From an uncultured Lachnospiraceae bacterium (GTDB lineage: Bacteria > Bacillota > Clostridia > Lachnospirales > Lachnospiraceae): a stretch of 45,322 nucleotides of DNA. Below the pieces are notes generated by a model that worked only from the letters and a program-made list of their open reading frames with translations, had not been told where the DNA came from and searched no databases. The position numbers and the translations under genes were made by a program. Shown here one piece after another: positions 13,050 to 45,322 of this stretch. The stretch covers positions 1 through 45,322 of the forward strand of contig CALWLN010000008.1 of the NCBI GenBank assembly GCA_944381535.1, given 5' to 3'. How positions within the stretch are numbered: the stretch's first letter is position 1; each line of letters opens with the position of its first letter.

Positions 13050-13817
13050 TTAAGTCTGGTATTTTTTTCTGAAATCACCAGGAGTCAAGTTTAAATTTTT
13101 CTGGAAGGCATGGTACAATCTGCGATCATTGTTGTAACCAACAAGGTAGCTGATTTCTGAAATAGTCATTTTTGGTTCTGCGAGTAGTAATTCACATGCT
13201 TTTTTCAGACGGATATAGTCAATTATAGCGTACAGAGACAAGTGAGTATGCTGGTTTATCAATGTGGACAGATAATTGGGGTGGAGCATTAATTCATCGC
13301 TCAGGGACTGAAGAGAAATGTCGCACATATATTTTTCCTGAATATACTCTATGACTTTTAAGACAGAAGAAGGGTAAGTCTCATCTTGAAGGTTCAAGGA
13401 AAAATATGGTATTTCAGGCAATTGAAAGTGAGAGAGTGCATAATTCTCTGGAAGTTCTTCCCAGACCTGTTGTACAATATGGAGCAATTGTTGTTTATCA
13501 ATGGGCTTTAGGAGATAATCCAGTACATGATGGCGCAGAGCAGTCTGGGCATATTCAAATTTATTATATCCGGAAATGATAATAAATTTATCGCAAATAT
13601 TTTCTTCCTGTAATTTTTTTATCAAATCCAGGCCATGCATATAGTGCATTTTTATATCGGTTATAACCAGATTAGGTAGAAAAGTTTTTGCTATTATAAG
13701 AGCTTCTCTTCCGTTTTCGGCAGATTGTATCTCACATTTCATATTTTCTTGTGCAGACAAAATAGATTTTATTCCCATGGTGATGTTATCTTCATCATCT
13801 ACAATTAATATTCTCAT
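13050..13817 (-). CDS. Response regulator with AraC-type DNA-binding domain (YesN-like, short)
   Basis: A 255-residue response regulator. The receiver domain (1-120) has phospho-acceptor Asp54 in VITDIKM and the conserved Lys in LLKPID near residue 105. The AraC helix-turn-helix pair fills about 155-255 and ends GDFRKKYQT. YesN proteins are often about 500 residues; this one lacks the middle region. The start is ATG 13817 with GAGGA 7 bases upstream, inside the end of the kinase gene (23-base overlap), so translation is coupled. It should control the divergent sugar genes; a shared box upstream of two of them supports this. Confidence 0.92.
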   Translation of the reverse strand: MRILIVDDEDNITMGIKSILSAQENMKCEIQSAENGREALIIAKTFLPNLVITDIKMHYMHGLDLIKKLQEENICDKFIIISGYNKFEYAQTALRHHVLDYLLKPIDKQQLLHIVQQVWEELPENYALSHFQLPEIPYFSLNLQDETYPSSVLKVIEYIQEKYMCDISLQSLSDELMLHPNYLSTLINQHTHLSLYAIIDYIRLKKACELLLAEPKMTISEISYLVGYNNDRRLYHAFQKNLNLTPGDFRKKYQT

Positions 13818-15534: not shown

Positions 15535-15572
15535 AAAAATATACCCCCTCTTTCGACTTTTTAATAATTAGT

Positions 15573-15601
15573 AGTATAAGAAAAAATATACATGTTGTCA
15601 A
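15573..15601 (-). promoter_or_regulatory. Promoter of the two-component system
   Basis: On the minus strand a consensus TTGACA (15601-15596), 17 bases, TATACT (15578-15573), 39 bases before the kinase start. This near-perfect sigma-A site suggests constitutive basal expression of the sensor pair. Confidence 0.75.
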
Positions 15602-15657
15602 GGTGATTTCAAGAAAAAGTTAAGGAGAAAAAGAGGTATTTTTGAAGTTGAATCAGA

Positions 15658-15711
15658 CGCATAAAATGTGAATGGATGTCAGTGTCATGGTCTGCTCAAA
15701 CATGGTAAAAT
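15658..15711 (+). promoter_or_regulatory. Activator box and -10 upstream of the GH95 gene
   Basis: The box starts CGCATAAAAT, then TGAA, and ends CAGT (15658-15683). It matches a box at 18047-18072 without gaps. The -10 TAAAAT at 15706-15711 starts 48 bases from the box start, the same spacing as in the second copy. There is no good -35 (TGTCAT), as expected for an activated promoter. The YesN-like regulator is the likely ligand. Confidence 0.6.
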
Positions 15712-15772
15712 AAAATACAATGTTTATTTGCCGGTGGAAGCAGGCATTGGAAAGAAAGGCATGGTGGTTGAG

Positions 15773-18028: not shown

Positions 18029-18046
18029 TAGGTTATATGAAATATG

Positions 18047-18100
18047 CGCATAAAATATGAAAAGGTGACAGTTTTCCACAGTGTAATTAGAAATTAAAAT
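18047..18100 (+). promoter_or_regulatory. Activator box and -10 upstream of the binding-protein gene
   Basis: Second copy of the island box: CGCATAAAAT (18047-18056), TGAA (18058-18061), CAGT (18069-18072). The -10 TAAAAT is at 18095-18100, 48 bases from the box start as in the GH95 promoter. The start codons lie at similar distances (115 and 127 bases from the box start). Confidence 0.6.
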
Positions 18101-18173
18101 ATGATTGTAGCCATATTATTTTTAGGTTCTTGGAATGAGGAGCCTGTTTTTTAGGAATGGAGGGTAAAATACA

Positions 18174-19748
18174 ATGAAAAAACGAATCTTGGCGACATTT
18201 TTGAGTATTATCATGGTTGTGACGATGGGGTTAACTGCATGCTCAGATGCTAAAGGAGAAAGCAGTAGAACAGAGGACGATGGGAAAGAGAACACAGAAG
18301 GGTCGGAGACAAAAATGGATACTCTGGAAGTATTCATAAATATGTCGTGGTATCCGACAGACAAATTTGAGGGGATTATTCCGAATCTGATTAAGGAGGC
18401 TACAGGCGTTGACCTGAATGTGACGATTGCCACAAGCAACGAACAACTGGGAGTTATGATTAGTTCAGGAGAACTTCCTGATTTGATTTATACTGATTCG
18501 GAAATTGACAGACTTTCTAACAGTAAGTTTTGCTATTCATATTCGGAACTGGAGGAATTATACGGAGCTTCCTTTGAAGATTTAGGAGACGAGGCAATTG
18601 CGATTGCGAAATCTTACTCGGAGGATGGAGATTATTACACAGTGCTGAATGCTACTGCAACATCAGACGACTGGGAGAATATGAAGTTGGGCGCAGTGGG
18701 ACAGCCAACCATTATGTATAGATCAGATTTGATGGATGAACTTGGTAATCCGAAAATTAATACACTGGAAGATTTTGTGGAGGTGCTGGAACTTTGTAAG
18801 ACGACTTTTCCAGACATGGTACCTTTTGGCCTGGGCGGTGTCTATAAATCTCAGTATATTAAAAATGTGATGGGTGTTACAAATAATATCTACGATGGAG
18901 CGACAGGTGAATATTATTATGAAGCATCGGCGCCGGGATACAAAGAATGCATGCAACTAATGAATGAATTTGCGCTGAAAGGATATATTGAGGCGGAGTA
19001 TTATGCAAATGAAAATGATGGAGACGGGAAGCAATATTTCTATAACGGAGACTGTGTCTTTTTTGCGGATTATTTAGGATATAATGATTATACTGTGATT
19101 CGGAATAATGTGCAGAGTGTCAATCCGGCTGCAGATGTGGCAATCCTTCCATGGATTGGTGAAGGTGGAGTTCCCATGGGCTCAAACGCTGGTTGGGCAG
19201 GATGTTTTGTATCCAGAAACTGCTCTAACCCGGAAGCAGCGGCCAGATTACTTACTTATCAACTTTCAAATGAGGGTAGACAGGCTGGAATGTGGGGGCG
19301 GGAAGGTATTGATTATACCTTAGGAGATGACGGTGTTCCGATATTTTCGGAAGAATTCAAGGAAGTTCGAGATAATGGAGAATTGGTAGAGGTTTACAAT
19401 TACAGATTCAGTTTTTATTTTACCGCAATTGATGAGATTTATATGAATTTGTCTGGTGGAAATCAGGAAATACTTGATATTTTTGCAACTTATAGGAAAG
19501 GATATCAGAATTATCCGGAACTAGCTATGGCGCGACCGGCGGCTTCTACTGATGAAGGTGTTATATATACCAAGCTGGAAGAATTGAAGAAGAGTTATGA
19601 GGCAAAGCTGATTTTTGCGGCGTCGGAAACTGAGTTTGAGAGCACCTATGCAGAATATATGGAGGCCTTGGAGCAGACAGGATTACAACAGTATAACGAT
19701 TATATGACGACATCCATTGTTGAAGCAAGGAAACTGCTAGGGAAGTAA
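18174..19748 (+). CDS. Extracellular solute-binding lipoprotein of a sugar ABC transporter
   Basis: A 524-residue substrate-binding protein of the LplA-like type. The N-terminus is a lipoprotein signal: positive MKKR, a hydrophobic core and the lipobox LTAC with Cys23, followed by a Ser/Glu/Asp-rich linker. It should be anchored on the outer face of the membrane and deliver an oligosaccharide to the two permeases that follow. The size matches the large oligosaccharide-binding class. GGAGGG lies 9 bases before the ATG. It has its own box-linked promoter, and a stem-loop separates it from the permeases. The neighbouring fucosidases suggest a fucosylated ligand, which is inferred. Confidence 0.92.
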   Translation: MKKRILATFLSIIMVVTMGLTACSDAKGESSRTEDDGKENTEGSETKMDTLEVFINMSWYPTDKFEGIIPNLIKEATGVDLNVTIATSNEQLGVMISSGELPDLIYTDSEIDRLSNSKFCYSYSELEELYGASFEDLGDEAIAIAKSYSEDGDYYTVLNATATSDDWENMKLGAVGQPTIMYRSDLMDELGNPKINTLEDFVEVLELCKTTFPDMVPFGLGGVYKSQYIKNVMGVTNNIYDGATGEYYYEASAPGYKECMQLMNEFALKGYIEAEYYANENDGDGKQYFYNGDCVFFADYLGYNDYTVIRNNVQSVNPAADVAILPWIGEGGVPMGSNAGWAGCFVSRNCSNPEAAARLLTYQLSNEGRQAGMWGREGIDYTLGDDGVPIFSEEFKEVRDNGELVEVYNYRFSFYFTAIDEIYMNLSGGNQEILDIFATYRKGYQNYPELAMARPAASTDEGVIYTKLEELKKSYEAKLIFAASETEFESTYAEYMEALEQTGLQQYNDYMTTSIVEARKLLGK

Positions 19749-19774
19749 TATTTTAAGTAAAGCTAAATGTGTTT

Positions 19775-19803
19775 ACCATCTGCAGCCCAAGGGTGCAGAT
19801 GGT
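19775..19803 (+). promoter_or_regulatory. Stem-loop between binding-protein and permease genes
   Basis: A perfect 10-base-pair stem (ACCATCTGCA at 19775-19784 with 19794-19803) and a 9-base loop. No T-run follows, so it is unlikely to be a full terminator. In ABC operons such a structure often protects the binding-protein mRNA and lowers permease expression. That role is inferred from position. Confidence 0.6.
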
Positions 19804-19853
19804 GGACGCTTTGCTGAAAGAGCGTAGAAAAACGCTGGAAAGGAGAGTGCAAT

Positions 19854-20807
19854 ATGAGCAAAGGGAAAGTAACAGGGTGTAAATATTTCCATGCGCTGAA
19901 AAAGCAGTTTTCACTACAAATATTTGTATGGGTGGGGCTGATTTATCTGTTTGTTTTTAGTTATCTTCCTATGGTAGGTCTGGTTATGGGCTTTAAGGAT
20001 TATGACATTGTGGATGGCGTTTGGGGAATTTTCACAAGTGAATGGGTAGGCTTAAAGTATTTTAAGGAATTTGTGAATGATGTTATGTTTGAACGTCTGG
20101 TGAGAAATACGATAGCAATCAGTGTGTTGAAAATGATATTCACTTTTCCGATGCCAATTATCTTTGCCGTTATGCTAAGTGAGATGCGCTCGCTGAAATA
20201 CAAGAAGCTGGTACAGACTTGCAGCTATCTGCCTCATTTTATTTCCTGGGTAGTGGTTGCGGGAATTTCTTTTCATTTTTTTTCTTTAAAAGGGATTATA
20301 AATACGTTGTTGGTAAATACGAGATTACTTCAAGAGCCGATTTCTTATTTAAGTGATAAGGATTTGTATTGGGCAATGGCAGTATTTCTGGATGTCTGGA
20401 AGGAGATGGGATGGTGGACCATAGTGTTTCTGGCAGCTATCGCCGGTGTCAATCATGAACTTCATGAGGCTGCAGCCATAGATGGAGCCGGGCGCTTGAA
20501 AAGGATTTGGCATATTACGCTGCCAAGTATTAAACCTACTGTAGTAATAGTATTAATCTTGGCGATTGGAAATCTTTTTGGTGGCGGATTATCGGGGTCT
20601 AATTTTGAACAAAGCTATCTGTTAGGTAATTCGATGAACAGTGAAACCTCTGACATTATACAGACATATGTATATGAAGTGGGTCTGTCTCAGGGCAGAT
20701 ATGCATATGCAACAGCAGTGGGTTTGATTCAGTCCGTCATTTCCCTTATTCTGATTTTGAACTGTAATTTTATTTCAAAAAAAATATCTGGAAGTAGCTT
20801 GTTTTAA
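19854..20807 (+). CDS. Sugar ABC transporter permease, LplB-like
   Basis: A 317-residue integral membrane permease with six predicted membrane spans. The cytosolic EAA loop reads EAAAIDGAGRLKRIWHITLPS near residue 203 and contacts the ATPase. It matches the LplB branch that pairs with YtcP-type permeases. AGGAG lies upstream of the ATG, 50 bases after the stem-loop. No ATP-binding subunit is encoded nearby, so a shared MsmK/MsmX-type ATPase from elsewhere is expected. The product is full length. Confidence 0.93.
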   Translation: MSKGKVTGCKYFHALKKQFSLQIFVWVGLIYLFVFSYLPMVGLVMGFKDYDIVDGVWGIFTSEWVGLKYFKEFVNDVMFERLVRNTIAISVLKMIFTFPMPIIFAVMLSEMRSLKYKKLVQTCSYLPHFISWVVVAGISFHFFSLKGIINTLLVNTRLLQEPISYLSDKDLYWAMAVFLDVWKEMGWWTIVFLAAIAGVNHELHEAAAIDGAGRLKRIWHITLPSIKPTVVIVLILAIGNLFGGGLSGSNFEQSYLLGNSMNSETSDIIQTYVYEVGLSQGRYAYATAVGLIQSVISLILILNCNFISKKISGSSLF

Positions 20808-20872
20808 TAATATGATGCAGTCTCATAAAAAATATTGTTTGACAAAGTAGACTTTATATCAGGGAGGAAAAC

Positions 20873-21763
20873 ATGCTAGAAAAATGGAAAAAGAAGAATA
20901 CAGAAGATAAGATAATTGATGTAGTAATATACCTTTTCTGCACACTCGTTTTATTTATCACAATCTATCCTTTTTATTACATATTGATAATCTCTTTCAA
21001 TGAGGGAATAGATGCATCGCTAGGTGGAATATATTGGCTTCCAAGAAAATTCACACTGGATAATTATAGCGACTTTTTTACGGACACAAAATGGCTTAAT
21101 GGGTTGTGGGTTTCTGTTTTGCGGACGGTGATAGGAACGGGGCTGAGTGTGATGTTGACTACTTTGGTAGCCTATGGCTTGTCGTTCAGACATTTAAAAG
21201 GAAGAAAGATTTATATGGTTCTCATCATTATCAGCATGTACTTTGGCGGAGGAATCATACCATATTACACACTGCTGAGAACACTGGGGCTTATTAATAC
21301 ATTTGCAGTCTATGTTATTCCGGGTGCTCTCAACACTTTTTTCGTTTTGGTTGGAATAGCATTTTTTGAAGATATTCCGCCATCCCTGCGGGAGTCGGCT
21401 AAAATTGACGGAGCCACTGAGATAAACGCGTTTAGAAAAATTATTTTACCACTCTCTAAGCCTTATGTGGCGACTTGTGTGTTGTTTGTTGGAGTAAATC
21501 AATGGAATAACTGGTTTGACACAGCAATTTTTGTCAGGGACAAAACTTTGTCAACATTGTCTTTTCTTATGATGCAGGTAATTAATTCTACACAAGTGTC
21601 AGCCACTGCCCCAGAACATGGAATAAGTATTGCTTCGACCACAACCACGCTTTCTATTCAGGCAGCGGCAATGATGGTAGCAACTCTACCAATCATATGT
21701 ATTTATCCATTTTTGCAAAAATATTTTGTATCAGGAATTATGATAGGATCCGTCAAGGAGTAA
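20873..21763 (+). CDS. Sugar ABC transporter permease, YtcP-like
   Basis: A 296-residue permease, the second half of the importer. It has six hydrophobic spans and the EAA loop LRESAKIDGATEINAFRKII near residue 176, and ends with the typical FVSGIMIGSVKE. A strong GGGAGGA precedes the ATG. It is separated from the first permease by 65 bases with no terminator. The tail motif is characteristic of the YtcP/AraQ class that transports oligosaccharides or uronate-containing glycans. Confidence 0.93.
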   Translation: MLEKWKKKNTEDKIIDVVIYLFCTLVLFITIYPFYYILIISFNEGIDASLGGIYWLPRKFTLDNYSDFFTDTKWLNGLWVSVLRTVIGTGLSVMLTTLVAYGLSFRHLKGRKIYMVLIIISMYFGGGIIPYYTLLRTLGLINTFAVYVIPGALNTFFVLVGIAFFEDIPPSLRESAKIDGATEINAFRKIILPLSKPYVATCVLFVGVNQWNNWFDTAIFVRDKTLSTLSFLMMQVINSTQVSATAPEHGISIASTTTTLSIQAAAMMVATLPIICIYPFLQKYFVSGIMIGSVKE

Positions 21764-21820
21764 GTGCGCTTCCCAAGATTACAATGAACACCTAAAGACT
21801 AATTAAAGAGGATAACATCG

Positions 21821-22230
21821 GTGTCGAAAATTTTTCAGACGCCTTTTTGGGGTGGCAGGAGAATTCAGTTGTTCTCAGCCGTTTATACGTGCCAAAAAGG
21901 AAAAGCTTGTGGACTCCCCTTTAGTCTGTCTTTGGCTGAGCGCTGTATACTTAGGCAAAGGAAAGCATTCAGAAAGAGAGGATACGAGATACCATGCAGA
22001 CGCATGACCACAAAAATGTTAAGACGAACAGTGGGAAAAAATTATATAGAGTACATCACAGAGCTACGCATGAGGGAAACCTATAGACTTCTGGAAGACA
22101 CGGATTTAAACATCCAGGACATTACTTTGGAAGTAGGATAAACGATAGTGTCTCTTTTAGTAAAAAGTTTAAAACTTTCATGGGAATTACCATGGTGAGT
22201 ACAGAAGAGAGTATAATAAGGGCAATATAA
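21821..22230 (+). pseudogene. AraC-type regulator remnant with frameshifts
   Basis: The readable part VGKNYIEYITELRMRETYRL (ending near 22090) is a normal AraC first helix-turn-helix. It continues to ITLEVG and then hits a stop at 22139-22141. If one missing base is allowed in the Gly-Tyr codon, the frame continues NDSVSFSKKFKTFMGIT, the conserved second helix. A second one-base loss then restores GEYRREYNK, the usual AraC end. The N-terminal 65 residues make no family sense, so the front is lost or scrambled. It was probably once the local regulator of the permease and GH29 genes. The ruin is clear; the exact borders are approximate. Confidence 0.75.
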
Positions 22231-22267
22231 AGGACGAAGATTTGATGATAGGAAGAGGTCTGGATTT

Positions 22268-23494
22268 ATGGTGCAAATAAAACAACAACAGTTAGATTTT
22301 CTTGACTGGGAATTTGGCGTATTTTTTCATTTTGGAATAAGGAGCTTTTATGAGGGACATAAGGACTGGGATATGAAGGAAATGCCTCTTTCCGGCTTCT
22401 GTCCTGAGCAGCTTGACTGCAATCAATGGATAAAAACAATCAAAGAAGCCGGCGCCACGTATGCAATTCTAGTGTGTAAACACCATGACGGATTTGCAAA
22501 CTGGCCGTCAAAATATACAGAATATTCTGTAGCAAATACGCCGTGGAAAGATGGAAAAGGAGATGTGGTCCAGGAATATGTTGACGCATGTCGCCGGTAT
22601 GGAATTAAGATTGGATTGTATTATTCGCCGGCGGAATTTGGCTCAAAGGACAAGGAAGCCAAAGATTATGATGAATATTTTATAAACCAGATTAGCGAAC
22701 TTCTCACTAATTATGGGAAAATTGACTATCTGTGGTTTGACGGCAATGGCTCTGAGAACCATGAGTATGATACTGTGCGGATTGTCGGCGTGATACGTTC
22801 TCTGCAGCCTGAGATTATGATATTCAATATGTGGAATCCGGATACAAGATGGGTAGGAAATGAGTCGGGGTACGCCCATACACCCAACCCATTGGTGGTA
22901 AATTCCCTGTCTTTTTCCGTGTTTACGGAGGTGAAAGAAGAACTTGACCATGACAGATTCCTACCGGCAGAGTGTGACTGCAGAATGCGGCGCTATAACT
23001 GGTTTTACAGTGACAGTGATGAGAAAACGGTGAAATCCATGGAAGAGCTTAAGGGAATGTATTATTATTCCGTGGGCAGAGGAGCAAATCTACTTCTTAA
23101 TATCGGACCGGACAGACGCGGCTTGCTTCCAGAAGCCGATAGCCGGCGTCTGATTGAGTTTGGAAGCTTTATAAAGAAAGCCTTTTCCAATCCGATTGCC
23201 ACTGATTTTGTAAAGGACGGAGATTCCTACATCTGTGAATTGGAGGAACCGGTTTTATTTAATCATGTCGTGTTGAAGGAAAACTGGAGTAAGATAACGT
23301 CTGTAAAAAGCTTTGAAGTTAAAGCGCATCCATATGAATTCGGAGAACCCGTCACTATTTATATAGGCAGGACAATTGGTCATAAGGCAATATGCTGTTT
23401 CCCTGCTTTTTATTCAAAGAAGGTGGAAATTTGCATAACAGAGAAAGAGTGCGAGGAAAAGCTGGATGGGATTGCGTTGTATTTTATAAAATAA
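22268..23494 (+). CDS. GH29 alpha-L-fucosidase
   Basis: A 408-residue retaining alpha-L-fucosidase. The N-terminal barrel has WEFGVFFHFGIRSFYEG near residue 14 and VCKHHDGFANWPS near 69, both substrate-binding landmarks. The nucleophile Asp158 is in YLWFDGNGS. A small beta domain follows from about residue 310. There is no signal peptide, so it acts in the cytosol on imported sugar. It is shorter than secreted host-type GH29 enzymes and groups by eye with the Clostridia intracellular type. An AGAGG site precedes the ATG. It ends the island operon, after the AraC remnant. Confidence 0.92.
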   Translation: MVQIKQQQLDFLDWEFGVFFHFGIRSFYEGHKDWDMKEMPLSGFCPEQLDCNQWIKTIKEAGATYAILVCKHHDGFANWPSKYTEYSVANTPWKDGKGDVVQEYVDACRRYGIKIGLYYSPAEFGSKDKEAKDYDEYFINQISELLTNYGKIDYLWFDGNGSENHEYDTVRIVGVIRSLQPEIMIFNMWNPDTRWVGNESGYAHTPNPLVVNSLSFSVFTEVKEELDHDRFLPAECDCRMRRYNWFYSDSDEKTVKSMEELKGMYYYSVGRGANLLLNIGPDRRGLLPEADSRRLIEFGSFIKKAFSNPIATDFVKDGDSYICELEEPVLFNHVVLKENWSKITSVKSFEVKAHPYEFGEPVTIYIGRTIGHKAICCFPAFYSKKVEICITEKECEEKLDGIALYFIK

Positions 23495-28737: not shown

Positions 28738-28788
28738 GCGAGACCCTGATTGCAGTAAGAAAGCATGCAATAAAGGTCTCGCTTTTTT
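28738..28788 (+). terminator. Rho-independent terminator of DegV
   Basis: An 8-base-pair outer stem GCGAGACC (28738-28745) with 28775-28782, an inner ATTGCA/TGCAAT stem, and six T (28783-28788). Confidence 0.85.
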
Positions 28789-28831
28789 ATTCTATAGGAA
28801 AGTTCTCCGAACTTCCCTATAGAATAAAAAA
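28783..28831. terminator. Near-perfect bidirectional terminator palindrome
   Basis: A 23-base-pair stem with one mismatch (28783-28805 with 28809-28831) and a 3-base loop. It is flanked by T6 and A6, so it can end transcripts from both sides. It shares its T-run with the previous terminator. Confidence 0.85.
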
Positions 28832-28920
28832 GCCCTCCGGGCAGGATCGCACTGCGGCGGAAAGGAATATTGTCGCTTATGCAACCCGCCGCAGGCGGAG
28901 AATCCTGCAAAGCAGGATTC
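28832..28920. repeat. Structured palindromic intergenic element
   Basis: Nested inverted repeats fill this GC-rich stretch: GCCC/GGGC at 28832-28842; GCAGGAT (28841-28847) with 28902-28908; CTGCGGCGG (28852-28860) with 28886-28894; and GAATCCTGC (28900-28908) with 28912-28920. It ends exactly at the neighbouring minus-strand stop. It may be a dispersed REP-like element or a transcript-end structure. Confidence 0.7.
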
Positions 28921-33505: not shown

Positions 33506-34447
33506 ATGAAGAAAGCAATAACATTTGTGGCCGCGGCTCTTGCAACGGTTTCTTTAGGGAATCCTCTCACAGCTTACGCCGCAGGAACAACACAGGGAAA
33601 GGTTGTATATAAAGGGACTATTGGGAACAGCCAGGAGCTGACAGATGGTTCCGTCAACTGGGAATCTTTTGGAAACGGTCTGGTGGGAGGCGTTGTCATC
33701 TGGAAGGAAGGCTGTACGGTATTGCCGGATTTCCCCGGAAATTCTCAGAAACCGGACAATCCAGGTACACCCAATCAGCCGGAGGAAAAACCGGAGAGTC
33801 CCGGCACACCGGAGCAGCCGGAGGAGATGCCGGACAGCAACGGAAGCCAGGACAGCCCAGATACGCCGGAAAACCCCGGCACGCCGAATCAGCCGGGAGA
33901 GGCGCCGGACAGTGACGGAAGCCAGGAAAACCCCGGCACGCCGAATCAGCCGGAAGAGACACCGGACAGTGACGGAAGCCCGGAAAACCCCGGCACGCCG
34001 AATCAGCCGGAAGAGATGCCGGACAGCGAGGGAAGCCAGGACAGCTCCGATACGCCGGAGACATCCCCCGAGGGTAAGACATACGCCCAGCAGGTGGTGG
34101 ACCTGGTAAATGCGGAGCGGGCCAAAGAGGGGCTGGCGCCCTTGACGGTGGATGAGAAGATTGCGGAGGCAGCGGCCATTCGGGCCAGAGAGATTACCGG
34201 GAATTTTTCCCATACACGTCCCAATGGGACCAGCTTTTCCACCGCTTTGAAGGAGGCGGGGGCAACCTACCGCCGGGCCGGAGAGAACATTGCCTGGGGG
34301 CAGAAAACGCCTGCCGAGGTGGTGAATGCCTGGATGAACAGTACCGGCCACCGGGCCAATATTATGAGTGAGAATTACAGCCGGATTGGTGTGGCTTACT
34401 ACCAAGAGGGCGGGAAGGCTTACTGGGCCCAGCTGTTTGCGGATTAG
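33506..34447 (+). CDS. Secreted CAP (SCP/PR1) domain protein with proline-rich repeats
   Basis: A 313-residue secreted protein. The signal peptide spans 1-25, with cleavage expected after AYA. A short N-terminal region follows, then a Pro/Asp/Glu/Ser repeat stalk (about 85-185) and a CAP domain (about 192-313) with NFSHTRPNGTSF, AGENIAWG and NAWMNSTGHRANIMSENY. CAP proteins of Clostridia are extracellular, and most have no known enzymatic role. There is no sortase or cell-wall anchor motif. ATG 33506 is chosen because AAGGAGA is 7 bases upstream; the open frame extends into purF-like sequence before it. A WalR-like box suggests envelope control. Confidence 0.9.
   Translation: MKKAITFVAAALATVSLGNPLTAYAAGTTQGKVVYKGTIGNSQELTDGSVNWESFGNGLVGGVVIWKEGCTVLPDFPGNSQKPDNPGTPNQPEEKPESPGTPEQPEEMPDSNGSQDSPDTPENPGTPNQPGEAPDSDGSQENPGTPNQPEETPDSDGSPENPGTPNQPEEMPDSEGSQDSSDTPETSPEGKTYAQQVVDLVNAERAKEGLAPLTVDEKIAEAAAIRAREITGNFSHTRPNGTSFSTALKEAGATYRRAGENIAWGQKTPAEVVNAWMNSTGHRANIMSENYSRIGVAYYQEGGKAYWAQLFAD
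33758..34060 (+). repeat. In-frame tandem repeats encoding the acidic proline stalk
   Basis: Units of about 57 bases encode NPGTPNQPEE then PDSDGS with small changes, repeated about five times. Two central copies are nearly identical at the DNA level, so length is likely to vary between strains. Confidence 0.85.
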
Positions 34448-35234: not shown

Positions 35235-35361
35235 CCGTAAAGAACCCGCCAAGAGAAAATTTTCTAGCAAAAATCTATCCGACGGGGAGCGTGAAGGACC
35301 GGGTGGCAAAATATATGATTGAGGAAGCGGAAAAGAGAGGTTTTCTGAAGGAAGGCTCTAA
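35235..35361 (+). repeat. Internally deleted duplicate of the cysK locus
   Basis: 35235-35276 matches the cysK leader at 36608-36649 almost exactly at first (the CCGTAAAGAACCCGCC start). From about 35275 it switches to cysK coding sequence (36842-36928, with GGGGAGCGTGAAGGACCGGG) and decays by 35361. About 200 bases equivalent to the cysK promoter and start are missing. It cannot make a protein. Confidence 0.85.
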
Positions 35362-36447: not shown

Positions 36448-36650
36448 AGACAAATCCTTTCTTTAAAATATGAAAATAAAAATTACGAGTAACAGTGTAC
36501 TTGGAACGTCTGGCGAAGCGCCAAAGATATAAGACCAAGTAGAAAGTCGATATCGATAAAAGCAGGATAGCATGTTTTACGAAAAAATGCAATAAAAATT
36601 TAGCATTCCGTAAAGAACCCGCCAAGAGAAAATTTTCTATCAAAAACCTA

Positions 36651-36702
36651 TTGACAGGCCACCACATAAATCATATAATTCCTATATAAACAGTAGGAAA
36701 TT
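36651..36702 (+). promoter_or_regulatory. Consensus promoter and CymR-like operator of cysK-metY
   Basis: TTGACA (36651-36656), 17 bases, TATAAT (36674-36679), a perfect sigma-A promoter. An inverted repeat TTCCTA (36679-36684) and TAGGAA (36694-36699) overlaps the -10 and start point. TAGGAA is the half-site of CymR operators, and the operon ends with an Rrf2 (CymR-family) gene. Confidence 0.75.
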
Positions 36703-36721
36703 GAAAGCGAGGAATAATGTG

Positions 36722-37654
36722 ATGTCAAATATTTATCAAACAGCCAATGAACTTATCGGGAATACGCCCCTTCTTCGGATGACGGCTTTAGAGCGGGAGC
36801 ATCAGTTGAAGGCCACCGTACTGGCAAAGCTTGAGTACTTTAATCCGGCGGGGAGCGTGAAGGACCGGGCGGCAAAATATATGATTGAGGAAGCGGAAAA
36901 GAGAGGTCTCCTAAAGGACGGCTCCGTGATAATCGAGCCCACCTCCGGGAACACGGGAATCGGGCTGGCCTCCATCGCGGCGGTCAAGGGCTACCGCATG
37001 ATCCTCACCATGCCGGAGACCATGAGTGTGGAGCGGCGGAACATTTTGAAGGCCTACGGGGCTGAGATCGTGCTAACGGAAGGAGCAAAAGGGATGAGAG
37101 GGGCCATTGCCAAAGCCCGGGAGCTGGCGGCTGAGATTCCCGGAAGCTTTATCCCCGGTCAGTTTGAAAATCCGGCCAACGCCAAGGCCCATTATGAGAC
37201 CACCGGACCGGAGATCTGGAAGGACACGGACGGGAAGGTGGACATCTTTGTGGCAGGTGTAGGTACCGGAGGAACTATCACCGGAGTGGGGACTTATCTG
37301 AAGGAGAGGAATCCCGGCGTGAAGATTGTGGCGGTGGAACCTTCCGATTCCCCGGTACTGTCCGGCGGAGCCGGCGGACCCCACAAGATTCAGGGAATCG
37401 GGGCGGGATTCGTTCCGGAGCTTTTGAACACAGCCATTTATGATGAGATTATAACGGTGGAGGGAGAGGCTTCCTTCCGGACAGGAAAAGAAATTGCCAG
37501 AAGGGAAGGCATTCTGGTGGGAATTTCCTCGGGAGCCGCCATGTGGGCCGCTCTGGAGCTGGCAAAACGCCCTGAGAACCAGGGGAAGACGATCGTGGCC
37601 CTGCTTCCCGACAGCGGCGACCGCTATTATTCCACGCCTCTTTTTCAAGAGTAA
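36722..37654 (+). CDS. cysK: Cysteine synthase A (O-acetylserine sulfhydrylase)
   Basis: A 310-residue PLP enzyme that makes cysteine from O-acetylserine and sulfide. The PLP Lys47 is in [14 protein letters not shown] and the substrate loop TSGNTG is at 74-79. GTGGT binds the phosphate near residue 182. The start is ATG 36722 ([20 protein letters not shown]); a TTG at 36701 is in frame but lies in the operator. It heads an operon with metY and rrf2, controlled by sulfur supply through the operator upstream. A decayed copy of this region lies at 35235. Confidence 0.95.
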
Positions 37655-39529: not shown

Positions 39530-40336
39530 TTAGAAAAGAATGGATTTCCGGTAATGGGAGGGCGGCATGCCGTAATATTCACAGAACCGGCGGGAAAAGT
39601 GAAACTGGTCGCAGAATCCAAGGGCGTCGCTGATCTCCTTTATGGATGTATCGGGGGAGCGCAGCAGATTTACCGCGGCAAACATGACCTGTTCATTCAC
39701 ATACTGCCCAAGGGAGACCTTCATTTCCTGCCGGAACTTCTTTTGCAGCTGGCTGGGAGAAACAAAGAGCAGTTCCGCCAGTCTCTGTGCGGTCAGAGAC
39801 AGGTGAGGACTGTTCTTTATGATTTGTATGGTGCGCTTTACCAGATCGCTGTATTCCTCAATGTCGCCCAGGGAAATGTTTTCCTGTAAAAGCGATTCCA
39901 AAACCGTTTGATAGAGGGAGGTCTTGATGGAAATGGAACTCAGGAGGTCTCCCCTGTGCCATTGGTCAATGATGGCGTCAATTTCCTTCTGCTTATCCGC
40001 AAGAGTAATACATTCGTTATAGCTGGAAAATAAATCGTAATTATTGTAGCCCAACAGATTGATGTGGGCGTATAATTTGCGCATGGAGCTGTCGCACCAG
40101 TAGGAAAATTCCAGATTGGACGGAATCAGATAAATGTTTCCGCCGGTCATTTTTATTGTTTTCTCGCAATATTTGATGTATGCCTCGCCGGTCTGTACAT
40201 AGTAGACCCGTATAAAGGGCGAGATGACATTTCCCATTTTCCAGGCACTGTCCAGTATGGCGAAGGATACTTCTAATATGTTCATGTTGATTCTGTTCAA
40301 TTCCTTCTTTAACAAAGGGTTTTCCAATACTTCCAT
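39530..40336 (-). CDS. AraC family transcriptional regulator
   Basis: A 268-residue AraC-type activator with an N-terminal cupin-like sugar-binding part (about 25-130, IRVYYVQTGEAYIKYCEKTIK). A C-terminal helix-turn-helix pair follows (about 170-266, SLTAQRLAELLFVSPSQLQKKF and ISDALGFCDQFHFSRRF, ending PSHYRKSILF). It is divergent from the GH29 gene, and their 115-base gap contains one copy of a box repeated upstream of the SGNH gene. It is therefore the likely activator of both. GGAGA precedes the ATG at 40336. The inducer is probably a fucosylated sugar, by inference. Confidence 0.92.
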   Translation of the reverse strand: MEVLENPLLKKELNRINMNILEVSFAILDSAWKMGNVISPFIRVYYVQTGEAYIKYCEKTIKMTGGNIYLIPSNLEFSYWCDSSMRKLYAHINLLGYNNYDLFSSYNECITLADKQKEIDAIIDQWHRGDLLSSISIKTSLYQTVLESLLQENISLGDIEEYSDLVKRTIQIIKNSPHLSLTAQRLAELLFVSPSQLQKKFRQEMKVSLGQYVNEQVMFAAVNLLRSPDTSIKEISDALGFCDQFHFSRRFCEYYGMPPSHYRKSILF

Positions 40337-40345
40337 CCTGAAATC

Positions 40346-40399
40346 TCCATATTTTATGTCAAATAATACATTCCTGTCCGAATGATTATATGCTAGATT
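40346..40399 (+). promoter_or_regulatory. AraC-type promoter, copy 1 (before GH29)
   Basis: A 54-base stretch from TCCATATTTT to the extended -10 TGC-TAGATT (TAGATT 40394-40399), with a weak -35 TTCCTG (40371-40376). It matches 44459-44512 at 45 of 54 positions with no gap. The weak -35 with a good extended -10 is typical of activator-dependent promoters. The left end overlaps the leader of the araC-type gene, so autoregulation is possible. Confidence 0.75.
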
Positions 40400-40451
40400 T
40401 ATGGAAAAGTCAAATGAGAACTGTTTATCAGGACAAAGGAGGAGGTAACAT

Positions 40452-41768
40452 ATGTTTGACAGAGAAGCTTATAACAAGAGAGTAGCCTGGTTCCAGGAAG
40501 CCCGCTTCGGCATGTTCATCCATTGGGGACTTTATGCCATTCCCGCAAGGGGTGAGTGGGTACGCTGCACCGAGCAAATGCCGGAGGAAGAGTATATGCC
40601 GTTTTTTGAAGAGTTCAATCCGGTGGATTACGACCCGAAGAAATGGGCAAGGGCGGCCAGAGAGGCTGGCATGAAATACGCGGTGCTGACGGCCAAGCAT
40701 CATGATGGGTTCTGTCTGTTTGACAGCAAGCTGACGGATTATAAAGCTACGAACACCAAGGCGAAACGTGATCTGGTGGCGGAGTATCTGGAGGCCTTTC
40801 GGGCGGAGGGACTCAAGGTGGGGCTTTACTATTCTCTTATTGACTGGCATCATCCGGATTACCCCCACTACGGTCACCCGAACCATCCCCGGCGAGATTG
40901 TGAGGCGGAGAAAGAAGCGGAGGAAAAACGCGACTTTAACCGTTATCTTGACTATATGCATGGCCAGGTGAAGGAGTTGTGCGCTGGGTATGGGAAACTG
41001 GACGTGATGTGGTTTGATTTTTCTTATGGCAATATGACGGGTGAGACCTGGCGGGCCACGGAGCTTGTGAATATGATACGCGCTTATCAGCCGGATGTGA
41101 TTATCGACAACAGGCTGGAGGTCAGCGGGGAGGGGTTCGGTTCCCTGGCTACGGACAACCCAAGTCCCTATTCGGGAGATTTTGTAAGTCCGGAGCAGAT
41201 TATTCCGCCCCAGGGATTGAAGACCGAGTCAGGCAGGGACCTGGTATGGGAAGCCTGCATCACCATGAATGACCACTGGGGATACTGCGCAAAGGATAAG
41301 AATTTTAAGCCAGCCTCCATGATTATCAAAAAGCTGGTGGAATGCGTCAGCAAAAACGGAAATATGTTGCTCAATGTGGGACCGGACGCAAAAGGAAATA
41401 TTCCCGAGGAATCTTTGGGGATATTAAAGGAAATCGGCAGATGGATGAACAAAAACGGAAATTCTATCTATGGCTGCAAGGGAAGCAGCCTGCCAAAACC
41501 GGAGAACGGCCGCGTCACCCAGAATGGAGATAAACTGTATTACCATATTATGGAAAATTCCATCGGCGGTGTTCCGTTGTATGGGATTTCCAGGGACCAG
41601 GTGAAGGCTGTCCGGCTTCTGTGCGACGGAAGTGAGCTTAAGGTATCCAATAGCTGGACGGTGAACAATTATCCTGACGTTGTGTTTGTGGATATCTCTG
41701 CCACCCCCTATCTGCCGGATGAGACGGATACGGTTGTGGAAGTTACATTGAAGGAGACGGAGGCATAA
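40452..41768 (+). CDS. GH29 alpha-L-fucosidase
   Basis: A 438-residue retaining alpha-L-fucosidase. RFGMFIHWGLYAIPARGEW is near 18, LTAKHHDGFCLF near 79, and the nucleophile Asp189 is in VMWFDFSYG. The GDFVSPEQ segment near 240 and the LLNVGPDAKGNIP end of the barrel near 305 are typical of Clostridia cytosolic GH29, and a small C-terminal domain follows. There is no signal peptide. A strong AGGAGG precedes the ATG. The family covers alpha-1,3/1,4- and other fucosides; linkage preference is not readable here. It shares its promoter type with the SGNH gene. Confidence 0.94.
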   Translation: MFDREAYNKRVAWFQEARFGMFIHWGLYAIPARGEWVRCTEQMPEEEYMPFFEEFNPVDYDPKKWARAAREAGMKYAVLTAKHHDGFCLFDSKLTDYKATNTKAKRDLVAEYLEAFRAEGLKVGLYYSLIDWHHPDYPHYGHPNHPRRDCEAEKEAEEKRDFNRYLDYMHGQVKELCAGYGKLDVMWFDFSYGNMTGETWRATELVNMIRAYQPDVIIDNRLEVSGEGFGSLATDNPSPYSGDFVSPEQIIPPQGLKTESGRDLVWEACITMNDHWGYCAKDKNFKPASMIIKKLVECVSKNGNMLLNVGPDAKGNIPEESLGILKEIGRWMNKNGNSIYGCKGSSLPKPENGRVTQNGDKLYYHIMENSIGGVPLYGISRDQVKAVRLLCDGSELKVSNSWTVNNYPDVVFVDISATPYLPDETDTVVEVTLKETEA

Positions 41769-41779
41769 TTTTTTCGTTT

Positions 41780-41900
41780 TTAGTTTGCAAGCAAAACATC
41801 CTTACGAATCTCGTCCCCATCTGAGTCCAATGCGGCGATATCAATCTCGGTCTGGCTGTCCCAATAACGTCTGATTTTGGAGAATTGGATCGGCCAGGCA
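41780..41900 (-). pseudogene. C-terminal fragment of a DUF234 ATPase
   Basis: The minus strand reads IRRYWDSQTEIDIAALDSDG, then a stop at 41780-41782. This matches the end of AAA ATPases with a DUF234 nuclease-like tail (R-x-W-D...EIDI pattern). No front part exists. The 570-base gap 41769-42339 otherwise holds a stem-loop and a promoter; short frames such as 42119-42301 look non-coding. Confidence 0.5.
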
Positions 41901-42074
41901 TTGCCGGTTATTGTTTTTTTTCGGATTTTCCTCAGTAACAAGTACTCTTTCAAACAAAGAGATAGTAGGTTATGGATGGCAACGTAGATGAACGCGCTAA
42001 TTCGTTAAAACTGAACCTGTCGCTCTGGGACAAAAAGAGAAAAGGATTGTACCTATTATAGCTTAAGTGATAAA

Positions 42075-42118
42075 GAAGCCGACGCCTCTTCTTGTAAAGG
42101 GAGAGGATCGTCGGCTTC
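42075..42118. terminator. Stem-loop in the GH29-esterase gap
   Basis: A 10-base-pair stem GAAGCCGACG (42075-42084) with 42109-42118, plus an inner CCTCT/AGAGG stem. T-rich sequence follows on the minus strand only (TTTATC), so it could end minus-strand transcripts. Confidence 0.55.
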
Positions 42119-42237
42119 GTGCTGTTTGTGAATGAGTTGTGTGGAAGAACAAATTTATATAAAGTTTGGTGCCAAAGTAACATCTCAGTATGGGATACCA
42201 TCATGGAAATCAAGGAACCGCAGATAAAGGCCCTGCC

Positions 42238-42266
42238 TTGTATTTTTTGCAAAGATTCGATATACT
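42238..42266 (+). promoter_or_regulatory. Promoter of the two-domain esterase gene
   Basis: TTGTAT (42238-42243), 17 bases, TATACT (42261-42266). It is unlike the two AraC-type promoters of the locus, so this gene may be expressed independently. Confidence 0.55.
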
Positions 42267-42339
42267 ATGGGAAGAAAGTTATTGCAAATAGCGTAGATTA
42301 GCATAAAAAATGGGGCGAAAAAGACCAGGAGGAAAGAGC

Positions 42340-44415
42340 ATGTACGAAGAATTTGAGCAGCATCATTTTATCGTGGATGGACACGAGGGGATATTGATCT
42401 GTCCCAAGGTACCAAGAGAGGACAGAAAATATATCTGGCGGACAGAGTTTTTGGGCGCTTTTGATTCTGTTGACAGAGAAATGCTAAAACGCGGGTGGTA
42501 TCTGACCTATTATAAGATCAGCGACCAGTTTGGCGCGCCCTGCGCCATTGAAAAAATGCGCGGATTCCAGGCATATCTGGAAGAAGAATTTGCGCTGGCA
42601 GCCCGGGCGGTGTTGTTGGGCTTCAGCCGGGGCGGGCTGTATGCGGTGAATTATGCGGCGGCGTACCCGGAGAAAACAGCCAAGCTGTATCTGGACGCGC
42701 CGGTCCTGGATGTCTTCAGCTGGCCGGGAGGCTTCGGACGGGGCGAGGGGAGTGAGAAGGACTGGAACATCTGTCAGAAACTCTACGGAGTGAAAGAGGG
42801 GGAGATGGACGCGCCCGAAAACCCGCTGAACAAGATAAAAACGCTGATCCAAAACAGGATCCCGGTGCTGCTGGTTGCGGGAGACGCGGATACGGTGGTT
42901 CCCTTCCGGGAAAACTGCCAGCTTTTGTATGCGGAATATACCTATGCCGGCGTTCCCATAAAAATGATAGTCAAACCGGGGGTGGGGCATCATCCCCACA
43001 GTCTGGAGGAGCCTACGGAACTTGCCGACTGGATTGAGTTTGACGAAGAATATGGCTGTATCATCGAAGAAGGCGCCATGGACTGGCAGATATTCCAGCA
43101 GAAGGAAGACGGATTTGCGGAAATATCCCTGCGGGGACGGTGCGTGAACCTGTTTGATGAGAAACCGTATCACGCCTTTGCCCGGGTGGTAAACGAGGCG
43201 AACGGAATGCCCGTGGTGGACTGGATGAGATGTGAAACGAAAGACAACTGCTGGGAGATTACCATGCAGGTGCCAAGAGGCGGCTTGTACCGGATAGACA
43301 CCTGCATGGATCTGGCGGAGAACTGCGGCGACTGGTCGGTCCGCGGGGACTGTGTACACCATGTGGGTGTGGGCGATGTTTTCGTGATCGCGGGGCAGAG
43401 TAACTCCGCCGGGTATGGCAAGGATTTTATCAGCGACATACCGGAAGAGGGCGTACATCTGCTGAAAAACAGCGGCCGTTGGGATCTTGCCGCACATCCC
43501 ATGAACGATTCCACCCATACGATTCACCCGCAAAACCGGGATGGGGCCAATACAGGCCATGGGCCCTATTTAAGCTTTGCAAAATATCTGAAGCGTGAGT
43601 TGGGTTACCCCATTGGCCTGGTGCAGACGTCCCTGGGCGGAAGTCCTTTGAACGCATGGAGTGGGGAGGACGGAAGCTTATACCGCAATATGATAAAGGT
43701 TGCTGAGAAATTAAAGGGAGTAAAAGGGATTCTCTGGTATCAGGGCTGTTCCGATGTAGATGGGGAAGCCTGCAAAACTTATGGGGAAAGATTTGAAAAA
43801 ATGGTGCGGGACATGCGCCGGGCTCTGAACTGTCCGGGACTGCCTTTCCTGACTTGCCAGCTGAACAAGGTGATGAACAGATGCGGGGAGGAAACCGACC
43901 GGGGCTGGGGCATGGTAAGGGAAGCCCAGCGGCGCGCGGGACAGAGGATACCCAATGTGTTTGTGATATCCACCGTGGGAGGCGGGATGTCGGATGGCAT
44001 ACACAACGCTGCGCCGTCTAATCTGATGATAGGGGAACGACTGGCCAGGTGCGCGCTGAGACATCTTTACGGCAGAAATGTGATGAGCGATTCCCCGGAT
44101 CTGGTCCGGGCGGCGCAAGAGGCCGAGACAAGGGTGAGACTGGAATTCGCGAATGTTTACCGTAATCTGGAATGGGTGAGCGAGTGGGCGGAAGATAAAA
44201 TCTTCTGTCTGGAGGGAGCGGGAAAGTGGTTTGTTCCGACTACTGCCAAAATCACCGGTGCCAATGTGGTAGAACTGGAATTTCAGGAAGAACTTCCCAA
44301 TGGGTGTGTGGCGCACGGGGCATACCAGGCGGATTTGCCGTATCTGCCGGTGATTGACAGCGCCTCCAAGCTTCCCATGCTGTCCTTCTATGGCGTGCCG
44401 GTAGAGGAAGAATAA
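42340..44415 (+). CDS. Two-domain esterase: alpha/beta hydrolase fused to SGNH/sialate O-acetylesterase
   Basis: A 691-residue protein with two hydrolase domains and no signal peptide. Residues 1-240 form an alpha/beta hydrolase with Ser96 in GFSRGG, Asp184 in AGDADTVVP and a His in GVGHHPH (217-218). A linker of about 100 residues follows. Residues 345-640 form an SGNH domain of the sialate O-acetylesterase (SASA) type, with Ser354 in AGQSNSAG, SLGGSPLNAW, the GxxN-like ILWYQGCSDV and Asp552-His555 in SDGIHN. Both triads look intact. It probably removes acetyl or other acyl groups from imported sugars. AGGAGGA precedes ATG 42340. It stands between the GH29 and SGNH genes. Confidence 0.88.
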   Translation: MYEEFEQHHFIVDGHEGILICPKVPREDRKYIWRTEFLGAFDSVDREMLKRGWYLTYYKISDQFGAPCAIEKMRGFQAYLEEEFALAARAVLLGFSRGGLYAVNYAAAYPEKTAKLYLDAPVLDVFSWPGGFGRGEGSEKDWNICQKLYGVKEGEMDAPENPLNKIKTLIQNRIPVLLVAGDADTVVPFRENCQLLYAEYTYAGVPIKMIVKPGVGHHPHSLEEPTELADWIEFDEEYGCIIEEGAMDWQIFQQKEDGFAEISLRGRCVNLFDEKPYHAFARVVNEANGMPVVDWMRCETKDNCWEITMQVPRGGLYRIDTCMDLAENCGDWSVRGDCVHHVGVGDVFVIAGQSNSAGYGKDFISDIPEEGVHLLKNSGRWDLAAHPMNDSTHTIHPQNRDGANTGHGPYLSFAKYLKRELGYPIGLVQTSLGGSPLNAWSGEDGSLYRNMIKVAEKLKGVKGILWYQGCSDVDGEACKTYGERFEKMVRDMRRALNCPGLPFLTCQLNKVMNRCGEETDRGWGMVREAQRRAGQRIPNVFVISTVGGGMSDGIHNAAPSNLMIGERLARCALRHLYGRNVMSDSPDLVRAAQEAETRVRLEFANVYRNLEWVSEWAEDKIFCLEGAGKWFVPTTAKITGANVVELEFQEELPNGCVAHGAYQADLPYLPVIDSASKLPMLSFYGVPVEEE

Positions 44416-44458
44416 TAGGAATATGCAATTAAAAATACAGTCCTTCTGTCCTAAAATA

Positions 44459-44512
44459 TCCATATTTTGAGCAAAATAATACATTCCGGTCGGAAGGATT
44501 CTGTGCTAGATT
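44459..44512 (+). promoter_or_regulatory. AraC-type promoter, copy 2 (before SGNH-GH29)
   Basis: Second 54-base copy: TCCATATTTT at 44459, weak -35 TTCCGG (44484-44489), extended -10 TGC-TAGATT (TAGATT 44507-44512). It has the same internal spacing as 40346-40399, and the ATG is 44 bases beyond the -10. Confidence 0.75.
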
Positions 44513-44555: not shown

Positions 44556-45179
44556 ATGGAACAGTTTACTTATGAAACGGAAGACAGAGCACTGGAACTG
44601 GAAACCTATGAATGGGACAATGTATGGTGGGAGCAGGCTCCGGATAATACGAAGCCCAGGGTTCTCTATATCGGCGATTCCATCTCATGTGGAATCCGCC
44701 GTATAGCTACGGACAAGGCCTGCGGAAAAATCCTTTTTGACGGGTTTGGGACTTCAAAGGCGGTGGATAATCCATATTTTGCAGAGTCCCTGCGATTGTT
44801 CGGAAAACAACAGCAAAAGCGGGAAATTATAATTTTCAACAATGGTCTCCATGGGTTTCACCTAAGTGATACCCAGCAGTACAAATTTCATTATAAGAAG
44901 CTGGTAAACTTTCTGATGGAAGAGTTCCAGGGAACACCCCTTGCCCTGGTGCTGACAACCAGTGTTGCCGGTCCACGTAATGAGCGGGTGATTGCCAGAA
45001 ACGGCGTTGCGAAGCAGATAGCGGAAATTTATGGGCTTCCGGTCATTGATTTATATTCTGCTTCCGTAGAGTATGCCGGACTGCGCACCGATGACGGTGT
45101 CCATTATACCCAGGAGGGATATGAGAAATTGGCGGAAAAGCTTCTGGAATCCGTATACAAAATCCTTCCGAGGTTATAA
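44556..45179 (+). CDS. SGNH/GDSL-family esterase
   Basis: A 207-residue cytosolic SGNH hydrolase. Block I is LYIGDSISCG with Ser42, the Asn of the oxyanion hole is in FNNGLHGFH near 95, and the catalytic pair Asp180-His183 is in DDGVHYT. The family includes carbohydrate acetyl- and acylesterases. AGGAGGA precedes the ATG. It is followed 28 bases later by a GH29 gene, so the pair is an operon behind AraC-type promoter copy 2. Deacylation ahead of fucose removal is the natural reading, by inference. Confidence 0.9.
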   Translation: MEQFTYETEDRALELETYEWDNVWWEQAPDNTKPRVLYIGDSISCGIRRIATDKACGKILFDGFGTSKAVDNPYFAESLRLFGKQQQKREIIIFNNGLHGFHLSDTQQYKFHYKKLVNFLMEEFQGTPLALVLTTSVAGPRNERVIARNGVAKQIAEIYGLPVIDLYSASVEYAGLRTDDGVHYTQEGYEKLAEKLLESVYKILPRL

Positions 45180-45207: not shown

Positions 45208-45322
45208 ATGAGTATACCTACACCAAAAAAGTACATTTCTGATTTTGAACAGTTAGGCTTTGGAATGTTTGTACACTGGGGCCTGTATTCCCAGCTTGGC
45301 AAAGGGGAGTGGATATGGAATA
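45208..45322 (+). CDS. GH29 alpha-L-fucosidase, N-terminal part (cut by window end)
   Basis: The first 38 codons only. [20 protein letters not shown] is the N-terminal GH29 signature, as in the enzyme at 40452. AAAGGAG lies 7 bases before the ATG. The rest of the gene lies outside the window, so completeness and active site are unknown. It would be the third GH29 in this window. Confidence 0.85.

Follow-up and report, generated by a model that had tools for sequence, protein, structure and literature searches.

Background

In the araC-araBAD system of Escherichia coli, the half-site consensus is TAGC-N7-TCCATA, in which TAGC forms the A-box. BgaR is an AraC-type lactose sensor that adjoins and activates a glycosidase gene. 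For the araC-araBAD region, the excerpt consulted of PMC4760080 describes the roles of araI1 and araI2, the recruitment of RNA polymerase by AraC bound at I2, and the presence of further operators and a CRP site. In the gut bacterium Ruminococcus gnavus, GH29 and GH95 genes are induced on 2'-fucosyllactose (2'FL) and 3-fucosyllactose (3FL); the excerpt of PMC3808388 names no regulator for these fucosidase genes, and the AraC-family gene mentioned in it belongs to the sialic-acid (nan) cluster. Here, we analysed a stretch of 45,322 nt from an uncultured Lachnospiraceae bacterium (GCA_944381535.1, CALWLN010000008.1; hereafter the window, which is the complete contig C8 of genome G000) for two similar promoter segments, copy a (40346-40399) between a gene for an AraC-family regulator and a GH29 gene, and copy b (44459-44512) ahead of an SGNH-GH29 unit. 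Judged from sequence, the two copies likely (probability of about 0.8) serve as promoters that depend on an activator, the adjacent AraC-type protein, and together make up a regulon of two sites. No description of an AraC-fucosidase regulon or of such an operator layout was found in open-licence papers and, judged on these papers, the clade of AraC regulators paired with GH29 is undescribed.

Repeat copies and their occurrence in the genome

Copies a and b were identical at 45 of 54 positions in an ungapped alignment; recomputation thus returned the value given in a sequence-only reading of the same DNA, and the extended -10 described there was found in both copies as TGC-TAGATT. A repeat-finding tool stretched the match leftward to 40325 and 44438, respectively (75 nt, 80% identity), and the next-best 54-mer in the window agreed with copy a at 30 positions and with copy b at 28. 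The own genome (4,300,806 bases in 241 contigs, completeness 93%) was searched with blastn, with a pattern, and with a model of the sequence only. A blastn search with copy b picked up its own position at E 2.5e-37, copy a at E 6.5e-13, and next a match at E 0.17, and a 39-base pattern with up to three mismatches hit exactly copies a and b (backwards control: 0). The model, which had been built from both copies and three orthologues and therefore matches these by construction, scored the two copies at 81.7 and 74.2 bits when applied to 150 of 1225 first-look candidates; the next match (C35:2290, 16.2 bits) sits within a long open reading frame (ORF). A scan of the whole genome, which the sequence-only reading had named as one of its checks, hence gave two sites only by all three routes.

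Chance similarity of the two copies was rejected, as these scans found the two sites and nothing comparable. The end of a mobile element was likewise rejected, since copy a with its flank (96 nt) was without a match at E 1e-5 among 72,556 plasmid and 50,697 phage records, and it is also disfavoured by the presence of only two genomic sites. An RNA element was rejected, without a search of Rfam, because the block common to both copies stops with the -10 and lies ahead of the expected transcript. In agreement with the sequence-only reading, the genes around the copies are not duplicated, yet the match enters the first codons of araC, since half-site 1 extends as far as the start codon of that gene. 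The claimed placement of copy b before SGNH-GH29 and of copy a beside araC stood as well, with the correction that copy a also faces a GH29 gene of its own (40452-41768).

Predicted promoter architecture and the regulator protein

The 75-nt copy a (40325..40399, + strand) is the predicted promoter-operator of GH29-a and carries the araC promoter on the opposite strand; it has a counterpart in three further genomes. Half-site 1 (40335..40351, +) ends in TCCATA and overlaps the araC start codon as well as the likely ribosome-binding site (GGAG, 40345-40348), and half-site 2 (40356..40372, +) lies 21 bp downstream with its last two bases in the -35 position. The extended -10 of GH29-a (TGC-TAGATT, 40391..40399, +) is without a good -35. 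On the minus strand, the araC promoter TTGACT-17-TATAAT (40385..40413) matches 11 of 12 consensus bases; each of the four orthologous regions scores the same. The spacer of this promoter contains the GH29-a -10, and the two -10 hexamers are neighbours. The half-sites of copy a lie just downstream of the predicted araC transcription start and cover the leader, ribosome-binding site, and start codon of araC. Because of this position, and because the GH29-a -10 lies inside the araC promoter, autorepression of araC would be expected.

In copy b (44438..44512, +), the predicted one-way promoter-operator of the SGNH-GH29 unit, the araC promoter is broken: TATAAT has become CAGAAT and the -35 is gone. 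Changes also affect the start codon and ribosome-binding site of araC. Four columns conserved among the orthologues are broken by copy b over 54 nt, two of which fall within the araC -10. The forward elements are kept, i.e., half-site 1 (44448..44464, +; 14/17 bases as in copy a), half-site 2 (44469..44485, +; 13/17), and the extended -10 TGC-TAGATT (44504..44512, +), which is located 43 bases before the SGNH start codon, with the ribosome-binding site AGGAGGA preceding SGNH. Copy b also retains GCTAGATT, which in copy a is part of the araC promoter spacer. As the reverse promoter is lost and GCTAGATT is retained, copy b separates the forward elements from those of the araC direction. All five close forward promoters, i.e., both copies and their three counterparts, combine the extended -10 with a poor -35 (in total, 5-7 of the 12 consensus bases), the pattern that an activated promoter would show.

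The regulator (268 aa, 39530..40336, - strand) carries a C-terminal double helix-turn-helix (HTH) with both HTH_18 (5.3e-20) and HTH_AraC (1.2e-14) above the Pfam cut-offs, which places it in the AraC family, and seven PDB sequences match this C-terminal part. Pfam AraC_binding was not matched on the protein. The AlphaFold model (pLDDT 79, pTM 0.53) has a beta-rich N-terminal half; given the low pTM, its domain arrangement is not to be relied on. Over its whole chain, the model matched structures of AraC-family proteins, including BgaR, in Foldseek at TM scores of about 0.37-0.49.

Distribution of the motif and the regulator

The search for related loci yielded 17 AraC relatives. Identity was 75-84% for three of them (L027, L028, L029) and did not exceed 31% for the other 14. 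Each of the three close loci has a single motif copy, located between araC and GH29. Allowing three mismatches, the motif was found in 3 of 397 genomes of the family (G000, G005, G417; backwards control: 0); the pattern was made from these sites and fits them by construction, so that its absence elsewhere is the result. At E 1e-30, the AraC protein was found in 8 of the 397 genomes, namely the three motif-bearing ones (82-100% identity) and five others (29-34%). A further genome, G424, carries the motif together with an AraC at 75% identity (L029), and motif and AraC orthologue thus occur together in 4/4 genomes. The small AraC regulon proposed in the sequence-only reading gains support from this distribution, since within the family the motif occurs only in the three genomes with an AraC orthologue. 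A search at the level of the order (392 genomes, E 1e-26) returned only the own genome and G312. Short DNA matches of 21-30 nt in G046, G048, G055, G128, G142, and G326 had no araC-GH29-like region within the 160 bases inspected; a seventh weak match, in G189, is an araC-GH29 region.

Promoter geometry in distant homologues

AraC homologues at 29-34% identity were present in eight genomes (G001, G003, G004, G189, G242, G275, G308, G312), in seven of which the gene is divergent from a GH29 gene. The box CTAAAATNTCCATATTTT, derived from the close set, occurs upstream of araC in G312 without a mismatch and in G189 with a single one (0/2000 resamplings each), counted over the 17 bases of the half-site 1 box. 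In G312 the box lies outside, upstream of, the araC reading frame and is therefore not a coding effect. With the full model, the site between araC and GH29 scored 20.7 bits in G189 and 13.3 bits in G312.

TCCAT anchors were first placed by eye and then scripted (best TCCAT near the araC start); the script picked the identical box in 8/8 distant promoters. Among offsets 40-57 from TCCAT, 48 nt gave the best -10-like hexamer in six of 13 promoters and shared the top score in five; in the remaining two, the -10 was at offsets 47 (G242) and 46 (G004). Resampling was performed with seven distant promoters, omitting G001 (a near copy of G003), and with a reduced set of five, which also omits G003 and G004. 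In the seven promoters, offset 48 gathered 29 of 42 consensus bases, a value reached at any offset from 30 to 74 in 1/5000 resamplings. Half-site identity at a lag of 21 was 0.53 in the seven distant and 0.58 in the five close promoters, compared with at most 0.41 at other lags between 12 and 33 (0/3000 resamplings for the seven distant promoters, 1/3000 for the reduced set). As a set, the eight distant promoters have the TCCAT box, the 21-bp repeat, and a -10 near 48 nt in common. In G312, a second box, TAAAATATCCATA, was seen near the GH29 start (L070 9815-9836), about 170 nt from the first. Half-site 1 of G242 (L067, around 1468) reads TAGC-N7-TCCATT and is the nearest of the set to the E. 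coli half-site, although the AraC homologue of this genome has no GH29 neighbour.

Gene neighbourhood and other features of the contig

Both copies precede GH29-containing units, as copy a is the divergent araC/GH29 promoter. The presumed target of copy a is GH29-a (40452..41768, +; 438 aa), a member of the alpha-L-fucosidase family (Pfam PF01120, 3.8e-94). It is followed by a gene remnant (41780..42227, +) consisting of four collinear blastn pieces (33-93 nt, 85-90%) that occur in the same order and orientation in the gene region left of araC in G005 (C205, about 917-1890), and by a gene for a 701-aa alpha/beta hydrolase with a SASA carbohydrate esterase (42310..44415, +; PF03629, 5.6e-46), before which the window scan found no comparable motif copy. 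Downstream of copy b, the SGNH/GDSL hydrolase gene (44556..45179, +; 207 aa) matched PF13472 at 8.8e-7, below the cut-off of that model, and PF00657 at 5.6e-6; its orthologue in G005 is 82% identical. The second GH29 gene, GH29-b (45208..45322, +; PF01120, 3.3e-7), ends after 38 aa at the contig edge and is cut at 45322 because the window is the whole of C8.

The rest of GH29-b is probably found at C4:2-1138 of the same genome. Contig C4 opens within a GH29 gene, behind which lie GH95 and GH2, and the first codons of the contig carry on the cut gene in frame with an overlap of 5 bases (by eye); there was no exact overlap of 15 or more between C8 and C4. GH95 and GH2 also come after the SGNH orthologue of G005, although there a GH29 copy stands directly before SGNH; identity between C4 and G005 is 79% for GH95 and only 47% for GH2. 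As C4 probably continues GH29-b and G005 has the order SGNH-GH95-GH2, copy b probably heads an SGNH-GH29-GH95-GH2 unit that extends across the contig break. G005 has two GH29 copies (L023 3038-4273 and L059 13061-13702) with 95.6% identity over 564 nt; the one beside araC stops early (394 aa) and the other runs directly into the SGNH-GH95-GH2-transporter genes. The pair could represent tandem duplicates or mixed strains.

Elsewhere in the window, the region ahead of a gene and an 82-nt piece of it recur in a short chimeric fragment upstream (35235-35358 vs 36608-36924, 95% and 93%); the gene duplicated in part is presumably cysK. At 13050-23494 lies a second GH29 locus. Besides a third GH29, it encodes an HTH region of the AraC type, a solute-binding protein, an ORF distantly similar to GH95 (26% identity), and two ORFs resembling permeases (41% and 34% identity to those of G005); the window scan found no comparable motif copy in it. 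In addition, five overlapping copies of an 89-nt repeat, spaced 39-75 nt apart, lie inside an ORF at 33743-34059, and an AT-rich 25-nt inverted repeat with arms 3 nt apart (96% complementary) is located at 28781-28833.

Discussion

The arrangement suggests the following mechanism. The AraC protein, probably as a dimer sensing a sugar, would bind the two direct half-sites, which are 21 bp apart with the downstream one reaching the -35, and bring RNA polymerase to an extended -10 without a good -35. Judging by the GH29, GH95, and GH2 genes only, a sugar derived from fucosylated glycans is the probable inducer. At copy a, the protein would activate GH29-a and is positioned to repress araC. Copy b would go back to an old duplication, after which the promoter, ribosome-binding site, and start codon of araC were lost and the forward elements kept; it would serve activation only, bringing SGNH-GH29-b and, past the contig break, probably GH95-GH2 under the same regulator.

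The AraC protein might instead repress both units, as AraC-family proteins can repress and the sites abut the promoter. We regard this as unlikely: repression fits poorly with forward promoters that lack a good -35 in all five close cases, and the half-sites are placed like araI1-I2 of E. coli, where binding at I2 recruits polymerase (PMC4760080, excerpt consulted). That copy b is a functionless leftover of a local duplication would agree with the collinear remnant at 41780-42227, which fits an old tandem duplication, with the other partly duplicated gene in the window (35235-35358 vs 36608-36924), with the two similar GH29 copies of G005, and with the lack of a second motif copy in any other genome; it is nevertheless quite improbable, given that copy b holds 45 of the 54 bases of copy a while its downstream flank is at chance (13/45), that it dropped the elements of the araC direction and retained the forward ones, and that its -10 stands 43 bases before the SGNH start codon, with AGGAGGA in between.

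A regulator other than the adjacent AraC could in principle bind the sites. The own genome gave 98 first-look candidates for the AraC protein, one of which passed E 1e-20, and an AraC-type response regulator is encoded on C4 behind GH95-GH2. The joint occurrence of motif and AraC orthologue in every motif-bearing genome, together with the similar box upstream of distant AraC homologues adjoining GH29, makes such a regulator very improbable. The conserved DNA might also be nothing but the 5' end of araC, with its first codons, ribosome-binding site, and promoter, seeing that half-site 1 overlaps the araC start region and the GH29 -10 lies within the araC promoter. As copy b keeps the forward elements without the araC 5' features, and the G312 box lies outside the araC frame, we give this explanation hardly any credence.

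Several results weigh against the two copies forming an AraC-run regulon of two sites. The scans of the own genome rest on an assembly that is 93% complete; the second motif copy occurs in the own genome only (one site each in G005, G417, and G424), and the SGNH gene in two of the eight genomes searched (G000, G005). Across the four orthologous regions, sampled every 6 positions, the promoter mostly had 38-42 invariant columns per 54 compared with a coding mean of 32.8 (standard deviation 5.3, maximum 44) and is thus not exceptional, and the retention of conserved columns by copy b gave a Fisher P of 0.019 over 54 nt and of 0.10 over 75 nt. Among the distant genomes, G242 was without GH29 in the 3.8 kb read; the box taken singly was not significant in G275, G001, and G003 (P 0.23-0.25) and weak in G242 (0.08) and G308 (0.035), and the best match in G004 (0.026) lay elsewhere than the anchored box. 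The full model did not match the araC-GH29 site of G275 and G308, and the whole-genome model lists for G312 and G275 contained other places and not this site. The P values are optimistic, because some of the genomes are related. Finally, of 13 AraC relatives from other groups, homologues from other phyla included (L030-L042; L043, with the HTH only, was excluded), seven lacked a TCCAT within reach; in the remaining six, a good -10 at offset 48 never went together with a 21-bp repeat.

With regard to the origin of the second site within the predicted AraC regulon, copy b looks old. It has 9 differences from copy a, compared with 5, 5, and 11 between copy a and its three counterparts, and of the alternatives "selected or recently copied" offered in the sequence-only reading, the recent copying finds no backing here. 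The remnant suggests an old tandem duplication of the neighbourhood; such an event, with the second araC lost afterwards, is plausible but not proven.

The predicted regulon names a regulator, its operator, and its targets for fucoside degradation in uncultured relatives within the Lachnospiraceae, and one contig would show how a two-way promoter between regulator and enzyme was copied and turned one-way to serve another operon. Targets of related AraC proteins may be sought with the anchored rule of box, 21 bp, and about 48 nt. More broadly, and as a doubtful proposal only, which is weakened by the 13 relatives from other groups that do not show it, the AraC clade paired with GH29 might hold a rigid geometry of a TCCAT core, a 21-bp repeat, and a -10 some 48 nt away, even where regulator identity falls to about 30%. 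Being the same within one base in E. coli araBAD, this geometry would reflect a common class II AraC constraint, with targets gained by copying the two-way promoter and stripping its regulator half.

Among known systems, BgaR (PDB 6nwo, 6nwh, 6nwj) is likened to the regulator by the structure match alone and senses a different sugar, lactose. The fucosyllactose-induced GH29 and GH95 genes of R. gnavus have their counterpart here in GH29 and probably GH95 under predicted AraC control. E. coli araC-araBAD is alike in its AraC-family protein, the core TCCATA, and the divergence of regulator and enzyme genes. Measured in the same way in strain MG1655, araBAD has direct half-sites 21 bp apart and 47 nt from TCCATA to the -10 (TACTGT, which we take to be the -10), compared with 48 nt here. 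As in araBAD-type class II promoters, the half-sites at this locus are 21 bp apart and the proximal one lies at the -35 with a near-fixed distance to the -10. Half-site 1 starts with ATCC or GTCC and ends in TCCATA, and half-site 2 ends in TACATT, so the ara half-site consensus is not followed; the A-box TAGC of E. coli is not kept here but is kept in G242. Moreover, 338 bp separate araB and araC in E. coli, whereas 115 bp with interleaved opposite promoters are found here, and this locus differs from ara in its second genomic site and in its targets (GH29, SGNH, and probably GH95). By analogy, the copies would thus behave like an araBAD-type class II promoter, but are not classed as a member of the ara system.

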